This document shows positions 48,234 through 64,000 of a stretch of 64,000 nucleotides of DNA, piece after piece. The DNA is from Tulasnella sp. 424 (lineage: Eukaryota > Basidiomycota > Agaricomycetes > Cantharellales > Tulasnellaceae), in contig WSUB01000008.1 of NCBI GenBank assembly GCA_019633425.1, positions 248,001 through 312,000 on the forward strand, read 5' to 3'. Position 1 is the stretch's first letter; each line of letters begins with the position of its first letter. Under the pieces are notes generated by a model. That model was given only the letters and a program-made list of their open reading frames with translations. It did not search any database and was not told the DNA's origin. Made by a program: the position numbers and the translations under genes.

Positions 48234-48710
48234 ATGCCTTCAGGATCAAGATCGAGACTTTCCGAGGCTTGCGCAATCACCGCCAAGCCCCACAAAGCCT
48301 CAACAGTTGGAGAGCTTGTCGCCAATCTTGGCGCACAATTGCCGATGATCAAAGAATGTATTTGTATTTCCGGGCAGACCCCCGAATTTGTCGACGTGTA
48401 TGCATGTGCAACTTCGTCGATAACCTTTGGAAAGCAATGGGGCTTGCGAACTAACTTCTTCTTCTTCCATCCGATAGATGAAAGGTCTTTTGTTACGAAT
48501 CGGTTCGAGGGGTGCGAGGGGTCCCGGGAGGATGCACAACATGACCACCTTGTCTGGATACTCGATGGGGAATCCTTTGCACTTGTTGCACGCTGGGAGG
48601 GGCCGAACTTCGGGATGAGACAGACAGGAGAAGTTTGCATCTCGCTTGGGTCGGCATGGGACTCACTTCATGGCATGGATTTTCATGAGAATTGCGAAGA
48701 AGGTTCGAAT
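48234..48710 (+). pseudogene. 5' part of an uncharacterised frame cut by the transposon
   Basis: Open frame from ATG at 48234 (MPSGSRSRLSEACAITAK) for 159 codons up to the target-site copy at 48704-48710. Without the insertion the frame would continue in phase into 55370-55486, giving 197 residues and a TAG stop. The protein is not recognised; visible segments include ASTVGELVANLGAQLP, ATSSITFGKQWGLRTNFFFF and HDHLVWILDGESFALVARW. No signal peptide or membrane span. The uninterrupted join across a 6.6-kb insertion suggests it was coding, but a chance open frame of this length cannot be excluded, and it may belong to a larger spliced gene. Confidence 0.45.
48704..48710. repeat. Left target-site duplication (TTCGAAT)
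   Basis: Seven bases directly abutting the left terminal inverted repeat; an identical copy abuts the right end at 55363. The core TTCGAA is palindromic. Confidence 0.9.
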
Positions 48711-48917
48711 CTAGTCTCTCGGGTCAGACGTTCACCCTCCGGTAACTTATTTGTGTCGTGGGAATCAGGCAAGCTGAGGACACAAAGTTCCGTCTGGAAC
48801 GTCTGACCGATTTCGTTTGGTGGCTTAGCGGAAACGACCGGTACCCCAAACCCCCCCTCACCGCATACCATTCCCGCCCCCGCAGCCCCTCCCAGACCAC
48901 TTCTACGTATTATTTAA
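48711..48917 (+). repeat. Left terminal inverted repeat (207 bp)
   Basis: Begins CTAGTCTCTCGGG and matches the reverse complement of 55156-55362 at every base I compared. Inside it, GGTCAGACGTTC (48722-48733) is inverted at 48797-48808. Nested between them, TTTGTGTC (48750-48757) is inverted at 48779-48786. A C-rich block follows, and TATTATTTAA (48908-48917) ends the repeat, about 110 bases before the DUF6589 ATG. Confidence 0.95.
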
Positions 48918-49026
48918 CCTCTGTACGTCAATTATATGCCTTGAGATGACCGAAAAGAGTGGTTCGAGTGACTCGGTTGGTGAACCGCCACCCCTCAGCG
49001 GTTGACTCTACGGCGAAGCCCAATTA

Positions 49027-52000
49027 ATGCCTACCAGCACTAATCATAACACATGGAACCTGGACCAACCGTTACTAGAAAATGAAACGCTTCATCAACG
49101 ACAGCGAGCAAGAAAGGTTGTGCGGATTCTGGAGTTTATGGGTCAATGCAACATGGATGTCGCGACATTTCTCGCCGCCCTCGTCGGGATCGACAATCCG
49201 GCCTGTTTCAGACTTCCCAAGTGTTCCAAGGCGCGCGGATCGTTCTATCGTCATGACCTATTTCTCGAGATTATCCGATACTGGCTCCGTCATCCCAATA
49301 ATTACGCTGGCCCGAAGGGCATCCTCCGCCCATTAATGATCAACGACGTGACCAGACTCATGGAGACCGAGCTCAACAAGTTTGGGAAGCGAATGGCAAA
49401 GGCAACCCCTGACCATTTGACTCTCACTTCGTTTGATTTCAATCATGAGCTGGAATGGGTCAAGGAGAATATGAAGGTCGTTTGGGGGGTACTTCACCGA
49501 GTCGCGACCACAAAGAGAGCCGAAAAGGAGAATACCAAGAAAGACCCTGAAATGGTACGTATATTGTGAATGATACCGATGTTGTAAGATGTGAACTTAG
49601 CTCAATTGGCAACCTCCCAGTTCCTCTTAATCGCAATAGGGCAACTGGCATACTCTCGGTCGAACCAAAATAACAAACTCGCCCAGCTCTTTGCAATCTT
49701 CTTCCAAGGAATTGGAATGCCTTCTCGCGCATTCGAAATCCTTCACCAAGTTCGTATATGCATGTCCCAGTCGTGGGCGGACAACGCCCTCGCAACCCTC
49801 TCTGAGGAGCGGATGCAGGAGATGGCCACCGACCTCAAGACATTTGCTTCATTTCTCAGCGGCGACAATATAAACATTGCACACCGAGTCTTCTCGCAAA
49901 GAGTATACAACCGGAACCTCTTCGAAAGCGGGACAGCTGCCACCGCCTTTATCACATCCCAACCACCTCTGCCCGCGGCCATCGCCGAAGAACACATCAG
50001 AAAGGCTCGGAAGCATCGTACCATTACCATTGACGACTTCATAAATAGCGGTGCCGCGGAGAGGCTCCGAGCATTTGAAATCCATCACATTGTTTCCATT
50101 CTTCTCGACTCTTATTGGTTCCGTCACTATAAGCTCCGCGATGACGACGCCCTTCAACCTCCAGCGCCTGTCCGATTAGCGCCTCGAGGTCCGGGAAATA
50201 AAATGAAGAAATACGTACTTAGAACTATGAAGATAGACCAGTCTTCATACGAGGGGAATTGCGATTAGTTCGAGGACGCCTTGAAACAAATGGGGTTCGC
50301 AACGAGTTTGGAGACGAAGGAGTTGGCGAGCTCCAAAGTTGTGACTGTGATTGGAGATGAACTCACTCACAAATGCTTTCGCGGGCTAAAGCGCTTCAGG
50401 GCCGGTGACCGAAACGGGTTCGAGCGGTTCGACTTTCTGAATGAAAGCATCGGGTGGTTTCATGTCCTCATGACATTGGCGCAGTCGATGTGGCAAGTGC
50501 ATTCGGGATCCAAACTCGGGACTGGACTCGCTCGAAATGTCCTGCTCCTGCAGCGTATTCACTTTAAAGGTGGAGCTCAAGACAAACCGCAGAAGCCAAC
50601 TCACCGGGCAACGGCACGGGGAAAGACCAAAGACGGGCAACCGTCGGATGCACAGCCAAACAACACTGCCGATATCGACCCAGAGATTCAGGAGAATCTC
50701 TCAAATGCAGGAGCACCCATGATGTCTGGGAAGAAGGCAGCGCAGCTAAGCTATCACGACCTCGATGAGCTGATCACCCAAGTCCTGAAAGCCCATGTCT
50801 TGAATGCGTGGCTTAGGGCCTCGAGGTGCGACAAGTTAGAAGACCTAAAGAACTGGGAGCCATCGCCGACCAAGCTTGTGGAGTTAGGGACGAAGATTTT
50901 GGATGAATTCGGTTCGTCAAAAGCTTTGCAGCAGACCGACCCTTCAGCAGTGGTGTCGAAGTCAAGGGCAAGAAGACCAAAACCAAAGCCGACAGAAGGT
51001 AGTTCCAATGAGTCGATGGCGGCAGAAGGAGAAAATGATGACTCAATGGCTGTCGATGAGGGGCTGGGACCCGGAACGCAGCCGGAGCCCGCAGCAGGCT
51101 CGAAGGATAAATCACTGTCGGAGACTGCCAAAACCCACCAAGGCACAATCTTTGAGAACGGCGTGCGCTTTACTCGAGATGCACTGTATTACTACTCTTT
51201 GAGACTTGCCATTCGAGAAGGTGATGTTGGAAGGATGGAAGATCTGATTCGGCCTCTCGCGGTCATGTTCAAAGGGGCCGGACACCCGAAGTATGCGATA
51301 TTGATGGCGGAAGTGCTCCAGAAGCTTAAAAATGAGTATCCTGCGGAATTAAGGTAACTTTCATTGAATGTTCCTGGTAGTGGTGTCTCGGCCTGAATTT
51401 CGTCGATTTAACAGGGATTTTGTCACGGATTACTGTTGGGTTGTAAGCCGAACTGGAAGAGGTGGCACATTCCATCCAGTCGATCAAGCACAGGAACATG
51501 TTAATTTGCACCTCAAGGTATTTCACGTGCGATTTGGGAGTCGGGTCATCCGACCAGCGCGTTACAGGGCTGACACGATTCACCAGGTCGTCCATGCAGC
51601 CAAAGGGTCAAACAGTTCATGGGACTACCTGTCTAAAATGTCGCCTGCAATACCCACCTATCAAAGTTTAGCTGCAACCATGGGCAGGGGATTCCCCTCT
51701 TCCCAAACCGGAACCTCTCATACCTCCCCTGACGACACCCTTGATATCCGGCTCCTTGTTGAACAGCTCCAACAAGACCGTGTCACAGACAAGGAGCATT
51801 CAAATGGATCGCATAGCGAGGCTGATCCAACAAAAGGTCTACGAAAGGTGACTCCGTCTGTTGATGTCTTTGGTGAAGGGTGGTCGGCTCTATCCACGGG
51901 AAAATTTCTGAGTGATTGGAAGAACCGGAGAAAATCAATAAAATCCAAATCAGATATATGGGATGAAGTAGAAACCACTTCCGGAGGAATCGAGGGCCGC

Positions 52001-52300
52001 TCTACACGTGGAAGCGAAGTCCCTCCTGGGGAGCCAGAGACCCAACCAGAGACAGACATCACGCCCATGATGGCAGTACCTCCGGACAATGACGAGGACA
52101 ATGACAGTAACGGGAGAATTTATTTTCAAGAGGATCTGGATGGCTACGAGTTACAAGATTGGGATTTAGGCGAGATGCCTGAGGTTATGGAGCACCTTGC
52201 TCAAGTTCCCCTTCCTGGGACGGAGTTTGATGGCGACCTCGACCACGACCACGACCCCGCCCTCGCCCTCGCCCGCGACCTCGAGCTGTTCCATGTGTAG
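49027..52300 (+). CDS. DUF6589 protein, presumed transposase, with one in-frame TAG
   Basis: Member of a family (DUF6589) that I know from many copies in Agaricomycetes. Its role is not established; I infer transposase because it is one of only two genes in a bounded DNA transposon. Exons: 49027-49554, 49621-51353 and 51415-52300, phase-consistent, 1,048 residues if the TAG is read through. Family landmarks are NMDVATFLAALVG near the start, TMKIDQSSYEGN, VIGDELTHKCFRGLKRFRA and GWFHVLMTLAQSMW. Later come GDVGRMEDLIRPLAVMFKG and DFVTDYCWVVSRTGR with HPVDQAQEHVN. The Asp in GDELT (about residue 422) is a candidate catalytic acid. TAG at 50266-50268 falls at about residue 392, between EGNCD and FEDALKQMG. 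The last 116 bases overlap the helicase gene on the other strand. Without read-through the main conserved part is lost. Confidence 0.85.
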
Positions 52301-55086
52301 CGTTAGTAGTGGAGTCATCGGTAGCAATGTTAGAGGCCTTTCGTTTTCTTGTTGTCGGAGGGCGCGAGCTTGGCATAAACATCGGGGTCTCGAGGCGTGC
52401 CAGCTGCAGAGCGGAGGCTGGTCCCGGAGTGCCCGGATTATACTGTGAAGATGATGATGCGAAAGGCTGGAGCTCTGCAAAGGGGTAAGGAAGACCCGCG
52501 CTAGGTAAAAAGGCAGTCCCGCCGGACGTTGTGGGGTAATTCGACGGTCCCGGAGTGCTAGCGGACTGGACCTGCATCAGTTCGGGTGGAGCGGTATTCT
52601 CTTGACCTGCTATTGAAGAGGTAGAAGGAGTTGAGGCTCGATCAAATGCTAGCCACGCCGGAATCTGAAGCCTCCGCTCGACCAATGGTTGGCGGGAACG
52701 GGCAGCGGAAGATCCTGGTGGTGGGAGGGTCAGTGACTGAGAGGGAGTACCATATGGCGAGAAATGGCAAGAATATGGCACTTGATGAGGCAGCTGCCCA
52801 GAGCCGGAGTTGGCTTGTGTCGGTTCTGGTGACTCCCGGATGTTCGGTACTACGTCAGTTTCGCCGAAGTGGTTAGAGTCCTGTTCTGCCTGTGGCCGTC
52901 GTCGCGCTTCGACGTCCCCAATGGTGGCAAGTACGTCGTTCCCGTAGCTATGGAGCCTCGACCAACAGGGTTTCAGTACCTTCTCTAGGTCAGGTATTGC
53001 CTTCAGATTTCTTCGAGACGCGACTTGTTTCAGGTGGCTGTCGGACATGAGGGCTATCGGTGGTAAGTCTCCTAGACCCTTATCCGCCCTCCATAACGTC
53101 AGTCTGAGATTGGCGAGAGCTTCTTGACATTCACGCAGCTCGGAGCCTCGCCGTTTGGGGTACGGACTTTTCTTCTTAGAGACTAAAGTCACTTCCTCGT
53201 CTTCGCTCTTGATTTCAATATCTGGATCAGTGTCCGAGTTACTTGACGTCTCACTCTCGATATTGCACTCATAGGAGTCTCTCAAGTCTGGAGGGAATGA
53301 GCCCGGGTCGCAACGGTCACAACAAATAAAAGAGGTTTCTTGAGAAGATCTTGTCAGCTTTCAGTCAAAAGGCGGAAAGGTTGGGTGCACCTAGCCTCTC
53401 TGGACCTCCATATATCACGTCCGTTGTGTGTCTTCGGCATCCGCTCGAGCGTATGATAGTGAGAAGGTCAGGAGATACTCGCTTCATGTTCGAGCGGCCT
53501 TTTGATCTTCGCTCAGCTTCGGCTTCCCCATCATAGAGTTCAACAGCTGGAGGGCCTCCGTCTTCCTGAGATGCCTCGTTCTCCTCGTTATCCTCAGGTT
53601 CGTCCGGGTCCTCGACCACCGCCTCATCCTCCGATACCTCCGTATCGAAGACAGACCGTTCGATGATTAGAGTTGCAAAAGACTGCAGTGTCCCGTCTCG
53701 TCCGGCTCGTCCAGCTCGCTGCAGCCATGTAGACAAATTGTCCGGACACCCCCAATTCCCGACATGCTTCACACCCGGAAAGCTCAGTCCCTGTGTGGAA
53801 AGCTGTTAGGCTTAGAGCCAAAGGCGATGAGAAGGATGAAAAGACTTGCCATGGCAGTTATATCAGTTGAAAAAAGTCCTCTTATCTTCCCTTCCGAGCT
53901 CATAAAGTCGCGAATGACGCTCTCCTTCGTTGATTGACCACGCAACGAAAAACAATAGTCCACTTGTTCATGCATTGATGCAAGCAAGAGGGCGCAAGCT
54001 TTCTGGTAGCAGGTAATAACTTGTTCACGAGTCTGAGAGAATAGGATGAACTTGTCCAAAACGGTGTCAGGCGGCGGATCTGCCGGTATGAAGAGGAGCA
54101 AGTCCGGAGACGGATTGTCATGTGTGCCCATCATCCGTACAACCCGATGAGCGATATTTGGGCGATCACAAGCTAGGTTAATGAAGAGGGACTTTGTTTC
54201 GGTAAGAGATAGGCTTCGTGTTACTTCTTCCCGGACAGCTGGCTTGAGAGTCGCTGACAACGCTAGGAGAGGTGTGTTACGGTCAAAGTAAGCACGGATC
54301 GACGATATTTTGGCATAGTCGCGCCGAAAGTTCTTCCCCCATAGATGAACACAGTGGACTTCATCAACAACCATATACTGGAGAAGAGAGCGGTACTTCG
54401 TCGAAATAAGGATATCTCCGAAACCTTTGTTCCGTAAGACCATTTCGGGAGACGTGATAATGACTCGGAAGCGATCAGCCTTAATTTCCTGTGAGCAAGA
54501 AGTTCTTTATTCAGTCCCATATCAAAATCTACTGGACACTTAGCACGTGCTTTAAAAAGGGTGGCCGTTGCAGTGGTCCCGTTGATTACAGCCGTCTGGA
54601 GCCCCATCTCATTGAAATCTGCGGCCTTGAAGGGTGAAATGAAATCATTAAGATAGCTATCAAATAGTATATCATACAAGTTTCACCTGAGCCGCTTGCA
54701 ATGCGTTCAGCGGCGATAAAATCAAAACAAAGCCTCGGTCCTTGACCAGCATCGGAAGGATGATGGGGAGTGTTTTGCCCGCGCTGGTTGGAGCGGTAAC
54801 TAGGCAATCATAACCATTCAGAATTGCTGATGTTGCGGCCGCTTGCCAGTCGTAAGGTGTCTTCTGAAGTTTTGCTTGCGCGGCTGCAGTGACCTCTTCG
54901 ACTCGCTCGCGGTGTTCGGCGGTTTCAAGATATTCAACCGCTCCCTGGACGTTCAATTCTGTGAGGGAAGTGCGGAAAATGGTATCGAGAACTTACATCG
55001 ACGATCATGCGCGGCTTGGCAACCTCCGAAGGGAACGTAGCCACAGAAGGGGCACCAGGGCGTACGAGATCCGGCTCGGTCGGCAT
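52185..55086 (-). CDS. RecQ-like SF2 DNA helicase of the transposon
   Basis: ATP-dependent DNA helicase, apparently intact: six exons (55086-54997, 54944-54687, 54625-54533, 54488-53850, 53790-53391, 53338-52185) keep phase to give 877 residues. Motif I is APTSAGKT (81-88), Ia SPLNALQAAQ, II VVDEVHCVHLWG (DEVH at 189-192), III ALSATL, IV ILFSQTREQ, V STDITAMGLSFPGVKHVGNWG and VI QRAGRAGRDG (384-393). A RecQ zinc site follows, GCRRHTTDVIYGG then CCDRCDP across an intron, then a divergent helical region (ELRECQEALANLRLTLWR) in the place of RQC/HRDC. The tail is disordered and ends in an Arg-Gly repeat. Intron 4 (53791-53849) has a GC donor. In exon 2 the acceptor CCAG before GGAGCGG was chosen because the nearer one meets a stop. 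Related helicases occur near telomeres and in mobile DNA of basidiomycetes. Confidence 0.9.
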
Positions 55087-55155
55087 GGCCCGGTGACGGT
55101 ATTTTATTTCGAGCCGTTTTCAGAGTTATAAAGACGTAGACGATTTCTAGGAAGT

Positions 55156-55362
55156 TTAAATAATACGTAGAAGTGGTCTGGGAGGGGCTGCGGGGGCGGG
55201 AATGGTATGCGGTGAGGGGGGGTTTGGGGTACCGGTCGTTTCCGCTAAGCCACCAAACGAAATCGGTCAGACGTTCCAGACGGAACTTTGTGTCCTCAGC
55301 TTGCCTGATTCCCACGACACAAATAAGTTACCGGAGGGTGAACGTCTGACCCGAGAGACTAG
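55156..55362 (-). repeat. Right terminal inverted repeat (207 bp)
   Basis: Exact inverted copy of 48711-48917. Its inner TATA-like end lies 70 bases upstream of the helicase ATG at 55086, so it probably supplies that gene's promoter as the left copy does for DUF6589. Confidence 0.95.
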
Positions 55363-55369
55363 TTCGAAT
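55363..55369. repeat. Right target-site duplication (TTCGAAT)
   Basis: Direct copy of 48704-48710, immediately outside the right terminal inverted repeat. Confidence 0.9.
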
Positions 55370-55486
55370 CCCCGAGACAGAATAGAGTCGCCGGTAATTG
55401 CAAGTGTTTGCTTCGCTGCCCGAAACAAGCGCCACAACTTAGATCATTGTCTCCCACCGTTCGGCTTCGTCGTTCCCGTCCATTAG
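55370..55486 (+). pseudogene. 3' part of the frame cut by the transposon
   Basis: Thirty-nine codons in phase with 48234-48710 if the element and one target copy are removed: PRDRIESPVIASVCFAARNK and onward to FGFVVPVH, then TAG at 55484-55486. Unrecognised. Confidence 0.45.
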
Positions 55487-58082: not shown

Positions 58083-58756
58083 ACTGCTAAGTTGAGGACG
58101 TCTTGAAGGGATGGTAGGATTAATGAAAATGAAGGTGGTTCAAAAGTAAGCGTCTCAAAGGCGTGTGACTTCGGTGTTTATCGGTTTGACCGGACCTCAT
58201 GAGCTTGCCGATAGACTGTCGTCATGTATCGGCATGATATCAAACTTTCGCCGTTATCTTATCGGATCAACCATATCAGAGCTTGTGACGCCAAGATGTC
58301 AGCACGCCAGTTACAGTTGACATGCCGGACTACAATCTCCAAAGATGGCCTTCACACGCGAGGGCTCCGGGGATGGCACTTGCACCATGATTTTCTCTGC
58401 GGGGTGGGCGGTACGAAGAAGATTAGCGCGCAATGCGATCCTCAAGCTTCAAGGGTGCATTGACTAGCCTGGGAGGCTGATTTGCTTACGAACTGTGTAA
58501 CCCATGCAAACACCTCGAATCGCTTGCTACGAATAAACCGTTCACCTTTTAGGCGAGGGAGGGCCTCGGGGATACTATTCGGACACGACGCGCAGAAGAA
58601 CTACCCTGACAAATAGGCAAGTGATCGGTCGGGGAAGGCGGTGGCGGCAACTGATTTATTGCCGTTCCGTCCGATGAAGCCAGCGCATTTCGTTTGTTCC
58701 TTTCCCCTTACTACTACGCAGTACTCTGCCCTCTTACTGTCTCAATAGCTTTACAA
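58083..58756. promoter_or_regulatory. JAC1 upstream and esterase A upstream region
   Basis: 674 bases between divergent genes. From about 58450 the sequence (GGTGCATTGACTAGCCTGGG and onward) recurs before esterase B near 60605, so this is the left edge of the duplicated block. Bases 58730-58756 recur before all three esterases. Confidence 0.5.
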
Positions 58757-59810
58757 ATGCCCACTAAGGAAGTCGACGCTATTCTCCTTTTTGGAGATTC
58801 TATCACCCAAGGAGCATGGGAGGAAGGAGGCTTCGCTCAACGTTTAGCATGTCAGTCTATTTTGCCCTTGTCGATTTTGACGCCCGCTAACATTGAACTT
58901 CAATCTGGCACCTGTAGACGTTTACGCTCGAAAGCTAGACGTTATTAACAGAGGTCTCTCCGGATACAACTCGGAGTGGGCGTTACCAGTCTTTGAACAA
59001 GTTGGTGCCAGTGCAACGTTAACGCGGTGGGAAAACGTCTCACTAATCAGTGTTGCAAACGCAGGTCGTCCCCAAAAAGGGCGCCATAGGACCCAAGATC
59101 AAGCTTCTAACGATCTGGTTGGGAGCGAATGATGCTTGCCTCTTGCCCAGTCCACAACACGTTAGTCCGGTCAAGCCATCCGCCCTGTTCCTGCCTGACG
59201 CCCGCCATGTTGCCTAGCTTTCCCTAGACCGATTCATCGCCAACCTCAGGCAAATGGTTTCGATGGTCCAGTCTCCAGACTCCGAGTACTACTCTCCCGA
59301 GACGCGTATCATCCTTATTACACCGCCGCCATTCAGCGAAGCTGCTCGCGCCGCGGACCTTGCCGCTCGAGATCCACCGATGGCCCTCGACAGGAAGTCC
59401 GAAGTTACGAAGAAGTTCGCCGACGCGGTGATCGAGCTCGGTAAAGAACTGGACGTACCAGTCGTGGATGTGTACACGCCCATCTGGAAGGCCACCGATA
59501 ATGGAGATCCCAAGAAGCTGGGAAAGTATCTGTACGACGGGCTACACCTGTCTAGAGAAGGCTACGCCGTATGTTTTTCCGTACACCTTGACGCTCGCTA
59601 TCGCTGAAGTAAACCCTTTCTAGGTCATGTACGAGCTCTTGATCCAGACAATAAAAACCAAGTTCCCCGAACTGCATTACGATGCTTTGCCGATGGTTTT
59701 CCCCGGGTACGTGGGTTTTCAAAGTCTCTCGACCTACCAATCATACTAATTGCTTGACCCGTAGCTGGAAAGACTTGGACTGGAGCAACGCCCGAGCATC
59801 CATCTTTTGA
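58757..59810 (+). CDS. IAH1: IAH1-like SGNH esterase, copy A
   Basis: GDSL/SGNH hydrolase related to isoamyl acetate-hydrolysing esterase, which cleaves short acetate esters. Six exons (58757-58850, 58918-59000, 59065-59160, 59218-59568, 59624-59706, 59765-59810) give 250 residues, near the human IAH1 length. Block I LLFGDSITQGAW holds the catalytic Ser. Block II is VINRGLSGYNSEWALP (Gly), block III TIWLGANDACLLP (Asn). Block V YDGLHLSREGY holds Asp and His. The end is PGWKDLDWSNARAS. All catalytic residues are present and this copy has the canonical block I, so it is the best candidate for the ancestral function. No signal peptide, so probably cytosolic. Confidence 0.93.
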
Positions 59811-60833
59811 GACTTCTTGTGAACACCTTATCGTACGAGCCTGGTAAACAGTCGCCAGTCTGCAGATTGTTCTGTTCTAAGATCTGTTTAGAGTGCATAA
59901 TACTAGAAAGCGAAACAGCGACCGGATGTGTCCGCTCCAAGCCCCGAGCTTGGTTTGCCTGCACGAGACAGTCGATAAGACGGACTCCACCCCGATGACT
60001 CCGGTCAGGGCCAACTTAACATGTAACTGCAACGAAAAAATGTAGAGAACAAGAAAGGGTTTGAATAAGACGCCAAAGGTGATCAAGAAACACTAGTCAA
60101 AGATACTAGGACAAAAATTGCGAGGACACTCGCGTTTCTCGAAAGAGGACATTCACACGTGAAGAGTGAGAGGTCCGTTTTGCTGAAGGCGAAAGGTTGA
60201 CCTCAGGTCATGCGGGAGTTCATCATCGAATCATTTAGGACGTGTTTGACGATGGTTGGTTCGGCGGGGTTGCGCTTGTTACGGAGGATGTCTCTGAGAG
60301 GAATCGTTCGGCAATCTGGAGGCTAGGCTGAGAGTTGACGGAAGAACCTTGTAATCCAGAGCACCGTTCTTTCGCTCGGCACCAGCCTCAGTAGCGTCGT
60401 CATCTGTAAAAGCAATGGAGCTCCAGGTTATGGCCCGAGCTCCCATACCTGGAGGCCGCAAGCTCTCAGACGAAAGTGCAGCTTCCAGAGCTGGAGTGGG
60501 CGTGGTAACGTTGCGCTGAACCGGGGTGATAGCACCGGATTTGCGGGCCTGGTGTTGAAGGTATGTCGTTGCTGGTTGCGGTAACGCCCTCGACTACGGC
60601 TCAAGGGTGCACGAACTAGCCTGGGACGCTGATTTGCTTAACTGTGTAACCTATGTAAACATTTTGAATCTTGTAAATGAGCCGGAAGTGACCAGAGGGC
60701 CGAGCCTTAGGACCGCTAAATCCGTAAGGTTTCGACACAAAATATCGATCATGTCCCATCCGATGAGCCTAACACACTCATCTGTTCCTTCTACGCAGTA
60801 CTCTTCCCTCTCACTATCTCGATAGCTCGACAA
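59811..60833. other. Spacer between esterases A and B
   Basis: About 1 kb. It holds the esterase A 3' flank, a minus-strand coding-like fragment (60204-60480, listed separately) and, from about 60600, a copy of the upstream sequence seen before esterase A. Confidence 0.6.
60204..60480 (-). pseudogene. Duplicated minus-strand gene fragment, copy 1
   Basis: Read leftwards, it matches 63727-64000. Shared segments include PPGMGARAITWSS, AFTDDDATEAG and NGALDYKVLPST, then in another frame DILRNKRNPAEPTIVKHVL ending in TGA at about 60204. It has five bases more than the other copy (near 60318), which breaks the shared frame. No start or upstream exons are seen here, so it is probably a remnant carried by the duplication. 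Confidence 0.45.
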
Positions 60834-61885
60834 ATGCCAACCAAAATAGTCGACGTCATTCTCCTTTTTGGAGATTCTCAGACTCAAGGCGCATGGGAAG
60901 AAGGAGGCTTTGCCCAACGCTTAGCTTGTGAGTACTCTTTTTGCCCTTGTCGAGTTTGAACGCCCAGTAAAATTGTACCTCTATCTGGCATCTGGAGACG
61001 TTTACGTCCGAAAGCTAGACGTTATTAACAGAGGTCTCTCTGGATACAACTCGGAGTGGGCGCTACCAGTCTTCGAACAAGTCTGTGGCCGAGCAACGCG
61101 CCGGGAAAAGGTTTCGCTGACCAGTCCCGGGAGCGCAGGTCTTGCCCAAAAAGGACGCCATAGGACCAAAGGTCAAGCTTTTAACGCTCTGGTTGGGAGG
61201 GAACGATACTTGCATCTTGCCCAGTGCACAACACGTCAGTTTGCCGAGCCACCTGCTACATTTCTGTCCGACGCCCACGATATTGTCTAGCTTCCCCTAG
61301 ACCGATTCGTTGTCAACCTCAGGCAAATGGTTTCTATGGTTCAGTCTCCCGACTCCGAATACTACTCTCCCGAGACGCGTATCATTCTTATTACACCCGC
61401 GCCCATCAACGAAGCTGTCCGCGCCGCGACGCTTGGCTCCCGAGACCCGCCGATTGCCCTCGATAGAAAGTCTGAGGTTACGAAGAAGTACGCCGAAGCG
61501 GTGATCAAACTCGGTCAAGAACTAAACGTACCTGTCTTGGATGTGTACACGCCCATCTGGGAGGCCACCGATAATGGAGATCCCAAGAAGCTGGAGAGGT
61601 ATCTGTACGACGGGTTACACCTATCGAAAGAAGGTTACGCCGTAGGTCTTTCTGTGCACCTGCATGACGCTCAGTATCGCTGAGGCAAACCCTTCCAGGT
61701 CCTGTACGACCTCTTGATCCAGACAATCAAAACCAAGTTCCCCGAACTGCATTACGACGCTTTGCCGATGGACTTCCCCGGGTATGTGGGGTTTCAAAGC
61801 CTCTCGACGTACCAATCATCCTAATTGCTTGACCCGTAGCTGGAAAGACTTGGACTGGAGCAATGCCCGAGCATCCATCCTTTGA
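60834..61885 (+). CDS. IAH1-like SGNH esterase, copy B
   Basis: Second tandem copy with the same six-exon plan and intact splice sites; stop TGA at 61883-61885. Block I reads LLFGDSQTQGAW (Ile to Gln after the catalytic Ser). Block II is VINRGLSGYN, block III TLWLGGNDTCILP (Ala to Gly, Ala to Thr). Block V YDGLHLSKEGY is intact. Catalytic Ser, Gly, Asn, Asp and His are all kept, so it should encode an enzyme, perhaps with altered substrate preference. Exon 2 uses a GGAG acceptor where A and C have GTAG. Confidence 0.9.
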
Positions 61886-62265
61886 GACTTCTTGTGAACA
61901 CCTTATCGTACGAGCATGGCAAACAGTCGCCAGTATGCAAACTATTCTGTTCGCAGACTTGTTTAGAGTGCATATTATTAAAAAGTGAAATATCAACCGC
62001 ATGTGTCCGCGTTTGCCTACACGGGACAACCGACTAGCCGGACTCCATTCCAATGGCTCCGGTCAGTTCTCTGCATAAACGGCCAATTTAATCAGGACTG
62101 CTAAATCCGTAGGGTTTGCTGATGGACGATATCGAAACGATATCTTGATACATATCAAGCCATATCTACGGCCGTCCCGTCCGATGAGCCTAGCGCACAT
62201 ATTTGTTCCTTTCCCGCTACTACTACGCAGCACTCTGCACTCTTACTGCATCAATAGCTCGACAA
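61886..62265. other. Spacer between esterases B and C
   Basis: 380 bases. Starts like the 3' flank of copy A, then passes after GGTCAGTTCTCTGC into sequence matching the upstream region of copy B. No minus-strand fragment here. Confidence 0.55.
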
Positions 62266-63319
62266 ATGCCAACCAAAATAGTCGACGTCATTCTTCTTTT
62301 TGGGGATTCGGGCACCGAAGGTGCATGGGAGGAAGGAGCATTCGTCCAACGCTTAGCTTGTTAGTACTATTTCCGGTCGTGTCGACTTTGGGCGCCCACT
62401 AGCATTGTACCTCTATCTGGCACCTGTAGACGATTACGCTCGAAAGCTAGACGTTATTAACAGAGGTCTCTCCGGATACAACTCGGAGTGGGCGCTACCA
62501 GTCTTCGAACAAGTCTGTGGCCGAGCAACGCGCTGGGAAAAGGTTTCGCTGACCAGTCCCGGGAGCACAGGTCTTTCCCCAAAAGGGTGCCATAGGACCA
62601 AAGGTCAAGCTTTTAACGATCTGGTTTGGAGGGAATGATGCTTGCCTCTTGCCCAGCCCACAACACGTCAGTCCGGCCAAGATATCCGCCCCATTCCTGC
62701 CTGACGACTGCCATGTCGCCTAGCTTCCCCTAGACCGATTCATCGCCAGCCTCAGACAAATGGTTTCCATGGTTCAGTCTCCAGACTCCCAATACTACTC
62801 TCCCGAGACACGCATCATCCTTATTACACCCCCGCCCTTCAACGAAGCTGTCCGCGCGGCGAGACTTGCCGCCAGAGACCCGCCGATTGCCCTCGACAGA
62901 AAGTCTGGAGTTACGAGGAAGTACGCCGACGCGGTGATCGAGCTCGGTAAAGAACTGAACGTACCAGCCTTGGATGTGTACACACCCATCTGGGAGGCCA
63001 CCGATAATGGAGATCCGAAGAAGCTGGAGAAGTATCTGTACGACGGGCTACATCCGTCTAAAGAAGGTTACGCCGTATGTTTTTCCGTGCACCTCCTTGG
63101 CCCTCGGTATCGCTGAGGCAAACCCTTGCCAGGTCATATACGACCTCTTGATCCAGACGATCGAGACGAAGTTTCCCGAACTGCATTATGACGCTTTGCC
63201 GATGGTTTTCCCCGGGTACGTGGGGTTTCAAAGTCTCTCGACCTACCAGTCATCCTAATTGCTTGACTCGTAGCTGGAAAGACTTGGATTGGAGCAACGC
63301 CCGAGCATCCATCTTTTGA
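62266..63319 (+). CDS. IAH1-like SGNH esterase, copy C
   Basis: Third tandem copy, six exons, TGA at 63317-63319. Block I reads LLFGDSGTEGAW and continues EEGAFVQRLA; block II is intact. Block III TIWFGGNDACLLP keeps Asn. Block V YDGLHPSKEGY keeps Asp and His but has Pro after His. Exon 1 donor is GTTAGT rather than GTGAGT or GTCAGT. Open throughout, so probably functional, though it carries the most changes at conserved blocks of the three. Confidence 0.88.
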
Positions 63320-63726
63320 GGCTTCTTGTGAACCGTGAGCCTGGTAAACAGTCACCAGTCTGCAAATCGCATGTCCTAAGACGTATTCAGAGTGCGTAAT
63401 ACTAGAAACTTGAAAGTGAAATATCAGCCGCATGCGTCCGCTCCAAGCCCCGAGCTTGGTTTGCCTCCATGAGACACTCGGACTCCACCCCAACGGCTCC
63501 GGTCAGTTCTCCGCATAAATGGCCAATTTAACACGTAACTGCAACTAAAAAAAGGTAGAAAACAAGAAAGGGTTTGAAAAAGACGCCAAAGGCGATCGAG
63601 AAACACTAGTCTAAGATATCAGTACAAAAATTGCGGGAACACTCGCCCTTCTCAAAAGAGGACATGTACATGTGAAGGGGGGAAGGGAAGGTCCGTTTTG
63701 CTGAAGGCGAAAAGTTGACCTCAGGT
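63320..63726. other. 3' flank of esterase C
   Basis: 407 bases matching the 3' flank of esterase A (for example GAAACACTAGTC near 63600 and 60090). No gene. Confidence 0.55.
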
Positions 63727-64000
63727 CATGCAGGATTTCATCATTAAATCGTTTAGGCCGTGCTTGATGATGGTTGGTTCGGCGGGGTTGCGCTTATCAT
63801 GGAGGATGTCTCCGAGAGGAGAGGTTCGGTAATCTGGAGACTGGGAGTTGATGGAAGAACCTTGTAATTCAGAGCACCGTTCTCTCGTTCGACACCGGCC
63901 TCAGACGCATCGTCATCTGTAAAAGCAAAGGAGCTCGAGGTTATGGTACGAGCTCCCATCCCTGGGGGATACAGACTCTCGGACGAAAGTGCAGCTTCCG
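63727..64000 (-). CDS. Minus-strand gene 3' part, copy 2 (runs off window)
   Basis: Open, coding-like sequence read leftwards from the right edge: LYPPGMGARTITSSS, AFTDDDASEAGVERENGALN, then (in a second frame) QGSSINSQSPDYRTSPLGDI and KRNPAEPTIIKHGLNDLMM to a TGA near 63727. The frame change must be bridged by an intron I could not place. Product unknown. The fuller gene probably lies to the right of the window; 60204-60480 is its duplicated remnant. Confidence 0.4.

Follow-up and report, generated by a model that had tools for sequence, protein, structure and literature searches.

A transposon copy in Tulasnella sp. 424, probably of AcademH type, encodes a putative DUF6589 transposase and a RecQ-family helicase

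Structure of the element

A 64,000-nucleotide stretch of the Tulasnella sp. 424 genome (contig WSUB01000008.1, positions 248,001 to 312,000; hereafter the window) was found to contain a 6,650-bp DNA transposon at window positions 48712-55361 (Table 1). Two convergent genes lie between its ends, a gene of the Pfam family DUF6589 (PF20231) on the + strand and a gene for a RecQ-type helicase on the - strand, and their tails overlap by 116 bp. PF20231 scored above its own cut-off in three + strand exon open reading frames (ORFs). The spliced helicase model matches the Pfam domains DEAD (3.4e-22) and Helicase_C (2.5e-15), and among solved structures RECQ5 is its best relative, followed by bacterial RecQ, BLM, WRN, RECQ1 and RECQ4. 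No Pfam family besides DUF6589 and the helicase domains rose above cut-off in the nine ORFs of the element that were scanned, in agreement with the two convergent genes of the original prediction, which had been made from the letters of the window.

Two of the helicase introns need GC-AG borders (53849 and 54544, - strand), which is unusual in one gene. Judged by eye, the relative on contig C37 (see below) has GT at the corresponding places.

The arms at 48711-48920 and 55153-55362 are perfectly inverted (210/210 bases by sequence comparison) and form the sole inverted pair of at least 80 nt reported in the window. Comparison with other copies shows that the outermost base of each apparent 210-base arm is part of the target-site duplication, and that the true inverted repeat is 209 bp long, starting TAGTCTCTCGGG. 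The identical inverted termini that had been predicted are therefore real, whereas the predicted 7-bp target duplication is in fact one of 9 bp, GTTCGAATC, the element and its flanks reading GTTCGAATC, TAGTCTC...GAGACTA, GTTCGAATC. The first base of GTTCGAATC is G and its last is C; as these are complementary, one base on each side also fits the inverted repeat, which gave the apparent 210-base arm and left the inner 7 bases to be read as the duplication.

Table 1. Features of the element (window coordinates).
Feature	Position	Strand	Basis
Left target-site duplication GTTCGAATC, 9 bp	48703..48711	.	Sequence; exact match to 55362-55370; 9 bp in 8/11 two-ended loci
Left terminal inverted repeat, 209 bp, starts TAGTCTCTCGGGTCAGACG	48712..48920	+	100% arm match; true start from copy comparison
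DUF6589 gene, putative DDE transposase; coding 49027-49554, 49621-51353, 51415-51517, 51587-52300, one in-frame TAG	49027..52300	+	PF20231 matches; splice sites and frame; relatives P0001 and P0002
First candidate catalytic Asp codon, GDNxN motif, predicted strand 1	49864..49866	+	Aligned with P0004 D77 and P0006 D281; invariant in 10-sequence alignment
In-frame TAG inside conserved stretch of DUF6589 gene	50266..50268	+	Frame comparison; public model P0001 omits 50215-50268 (54 bp)
Second candidate catalytic Asp codon, GDELT motif, after predicted strand 4	50356..50358	+	Aligned with P0004 D246 and P0006 D453; invariant in 10-sequence alignment
Candidate catalytic Glu codon, QEH motif, after helical insertion	51494..51496	+	Aligned with P0004 E491 and P0006 E697
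RecQ-family helicase gene, 873-aa model, six exons	52185..55086	-	Spliced model; best solved relative RECQ5, E 1.4e-30
Right terminal inverted repeat, 209 bp	55153..55361	-	Arm match
Right target-site duplication GTTCGAATC, 9 bp	55362..55370	.	Sequence

Copies elsewhere in the genome

The 46.8-Mb assembly (448 contigs) was searched for further copies. The end pattern TAGYCTCYCNGGYCAGRCG, with no more than one mismatch, was found at 30 sites against 0 for its reversed control, and the end pattern of the C37 family at 21 against 0; a looser first end pattern, allowing up to 3 mismatches, gave 29 sites against 7. Paired ends were sought in 46 stretches, namely the window and 45 others around end matches and DUF6589 genes (L027 and L046 overlap). 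One recognisable end or none was present within the piece fetched in 35 of these, and 13 end pairs were found in the 11 two-ended loci; one of the 13, a window pair on a chance internal match (53275), was left out. Perfect 9-bp duplications flank eight of these 11 loci (the window, L022, L025, L043, L047, L048, L050 and L051). The duplication of L049 matches at 8/9 positions. L027 has none, nor has either of the two end pairs in L026, and both loci were counted as misses. In all eight perfect loci the match ends at 9 bases, and the duplicated sequences differ among loci. An exact 9 bp at the same boundary in so many loci is not a chance match.

A genome search with PF20231 revealed at least five DUF6589 loci, with 13 matches on C280, C427, C37, C322 and C414. 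Three of the five (the window, C37 and C280) are near full-length, and in all three a RecQ gene converges on the DUF6589 gene, which bears out the predicted pairing of DUF6589 with a RecQ partner. The copy on C37 is a second full-length element, with 164-base arms that are 96% alike and a perfect 9-bp duplication, CCAAGCTAT. That on C280 is degraded: its 62-base inverted pair is 79% alike, its outer ends start CTGCCTC instead of TAG, and its duplication matches at 8/9 positions with the boundary set by eye. The fragments on C322 and C414 have no helicase match in the surrounding stretches read. The original prediction had proposed testing whether DUF6589 genes lie beside RecQ between inverted ends with 7-bp duplications; this layout holds for the window and C37, save that the duplications are of 9 bp, and in degraded form for C280.

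Some other copies are shorter. L050 (C400:120200-122054; 1,855 bases) retains part of the coding sequence for a helicase and has a perfect 9-bp duplication, and the PF20231 search gave no DUF6589 match in it. L025, L047 and L048, at 169, 196 and 192 bases, are barely more than two ends, and they too have 9-bp duplications. Because these end-only copies and the 1.9-kb helicase-only copy are flanked in this way, it would appear that the ends suffice in cis and that the transposase can work in trans. There are also helicase-like matches unaccompanied by DUF6589 (e.g. C400, C357, C358, C240 and C193), and among them L050 (C400) and L049 (C240) are bounded by ends. Outside the host, 34 pattern matches in viral contigs included none confirmed as a relative, no relative of the element was found in plasmids, and 58 bases of the left end had no phage match.

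The sequence at the insertion site, GGTTCGAATCC (48702-48711 / 55362-55371), resembles a tRNA B box. Targeting of tRNA genes was rejected, as ARAGORN predicted no tRNA gene anywhere in the window, nor in the flanks of the element once rejoined, and the duplications of the other loci are unrelated in sequence.

Some 85 bases into each inverted repeat, at window 48795-48810 on the left and at the equivalent position on the right, the end motif of that repeat recurs in inverted orientation. In the window family 16/2000 shuffles were as good; the signal is weak in C280 (104/2000) and absent in C37 by the same test (1609/2000). The motif may be a transposase site, but the statistics are no more than suggestive, and that in the window family, and no such site is claimed.

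The DUF6589 gene and its relatives

The DUF6589 gene of the window copy carries an in-frame stop, although both ends of the element are perfectly alike. Relatives keep the stretch around the stop as coding, and dropping the segment that the public model P0001 omits would remove conserved residues, so the transposase of this copy is probably defective. Judging from its sequence, the copy itself is probably non-autonomous at present. P0001, from Tulasnella sp. 425, is 99% identical to the window product over 92% of that product, and the same insertion may be common to isolates sp. 424 and sp. 425. Three protein searches over about 8,000 candidates each returned at least two, at least four and at least six proteins, the query of the first being an earlier model of the gene in which the conserved stretch was taken as an intron and a 69-bp intron was retained. 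Members of the family also occur in Boletus edulis (P0006) and Hermanssonia centrifuga (P0005). For the C37 protein (P0002, Tulasnella sp. 424), the public model is without a stretch that most relatives have, and the C37 copy may also be damaged or misassembled.

Predicted fold and candidate catalytic residues

The original prediction had proposed looking in DUF6589 for an RNase H fold with clustered acidic residues, and the predicted models of two DUF6589 proteins suggest such a fold. Their best matches, at moderate confidence, are RNase H transposases (Hermes and P element), and in VIA-align the first 13 rows for each model are RNase H recombinases. Foldseek gave no match with E below 0.001 for either model. 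In both models Asp, Asp and Glu are in the expected places of the fold. The candidate Glu is present in 5/10 aligned sequences, which are those that reach that far, and PF20231 begins downstream of the first Asp. When PDB sequences were searched with a profile of DUF6589, nothing was returned at E up to 1; no Pfam hAT, P or MULE (Mutator-like element) match was listed for 10 DUF6589 proteins (MULE at E up to 1), and no viral fold match fell below E 0.3. Taken together, these moderate-confidence models support DUF6589 as a transposase.

Classification of the element

AcademH is reportedly a lineage of the Academ superfamily, and is said to go back to Kojima, 2020, Mob DNA 11:15. AcademH makes duplications of 9 or 10 bp and AcademX of 3 or 4 bp, the two being linked to a helicase and a nuclease respectively (PMC10045372); a RecQ helicase is mentioned for Academ (PMC3627910), the copy number of AcademH is low in Basidiomycota, Ascomycota and Mucoromycota (PMC10799480), and putative nonautonomous Academ elements occur in Marasmius oreades (PMC8290104). 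The value of 3-4 bp that the original prediction had given for Academ as a whole thus suits AcademX and not AcademH. The window element shares with AcademH a fungal host, a helicase and the length of the duplication, and no difference was found in these three respects, whereas AcademX, with its nuclease and short duplications, departs from it. The duplication length is that of the eight perfect loci, the RecQ-type gene is present in the window element, C37 and C280, and the DDE / RNase H fold is seen in the two predicted models at moderate confidence. We therefore consider it probable that the element in the window is one copy of a cut-and-paste transposon of AcademH type, with the DUF6589 protein as DDE transposase. 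The label rests on host, helicase and duplication length; a kinship of the DUF6589 transposase with those of Academ is presumed. As the element would then be of a kind already described, an undescribed superfamily, which the original prediction had drawn from 7 bp, is not supported.

The chief rival is a separate DDE superfamily, as yet undescribed, that acquired its RecQ helicase and 9-bp duplication independently and is not related to Academ. In its favour, DUF6589 was not found in the literature searched (subscription literature and Repbase lay outside the search), and PF20231 appeared only in an unrelated physics paper. Set against this is the coincidence of helicase, 9-bp duplication and fungal host with the published features of AcademH or Academ, and we give this rival roughly one chance in ten. 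It has a fuller version, about equally improbable, in which DUF6589 makes up the greater part of a DDE transposase domain, the DUF6589 genes of mushrooms code for transposases, and the family is its own superfamily apart from Academ, having a Hermes/P-like fold and RecQ as its habitual partner. Like Hermes (hAT) and the P element, the predicted fold has an RNase H core into which helices are inserted ahead of the Glu. However, the window family differs from both in its paired helicase, and its 9 bp departs from the hAT duplication, which is usually 8 bp, with 5, 6 or 7 in named variants (PMC12730594).

Other known groups fit less well. It is quite unlikely that the element is a MULE, although 9-bp duplications would be possible there, since MuDR and IS256 together span 4-10 bp (PMC10045372). 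The absence of MULE among the Pfam matches listed above would speak against this assignment. MULEs have long inverted repeats, as here, and the second DUF6589 model has ISCth4, which we take to be an IS256-family transposase, as one of its fold matches; a RecQ partner is, to our knowledge, not a MULE trait. A KolobokH element is very improbable. KolobokH resembles the window element in encoding RecQ and has been found only in fungi, and one red-alga Kolobok has its RecQ on the complementary strand, as here; but Kolobok duplications are 4-bp and TTAA-specific, and the KolobokH helicase lies downstream of the transposase domain rather than in a convergent gene (PMC9587614). In the window family the duplications are of 9 bp, non-TTAA and specific to each locus. 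Just as improbable is that DUF6589 and the helicase are passengers and that another protein moves the element. The very short end-only copies, evidence that whatever moves them can work in trans, would permit this, but the nine ORFs scanned between the ends revealed no further gene, the same gene pair recurs in three elements, and the DUF6589 models match transposases best.

If the AcademH-type reading is right, the transposase would resemble those of Hermes and the P element in combining an RNase H fold with a large insertion, made up of helices throughout, ahead of the catalytic Glu, and would bind the long inverted repeats and excise the element. It would then join the ends to the target with a 9-bp stagger, and gap repair would give rise to the 9-bp duplications. 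The probable part of the RecQ-type helicase is to unwind or remodel DNA at about the stage of strand transfer or repair.

Neighbouring genes

Towards the end of the window (58693-64000) are three tandem gene copies, 72-90% alike and about 2.07 and 1.43 kb apart. The stretch with the first copy matches GDSL lipase/acylhydrolase.

Significance

The correction of the duplication matters for classification, as 7 bp would have suggested a false new superfamily. Within the literature searched, the link between DUF6589 and AcademH may be new in print. It gives a Pfam family of unknown function a testable one, that of a DDE transposase, and offers a reason why the family escaped recognition, namely that its Pfam model omits the first Asp. 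It would also connect DUF6589 with a lineage of helicase-bearing transposons that has already been described.
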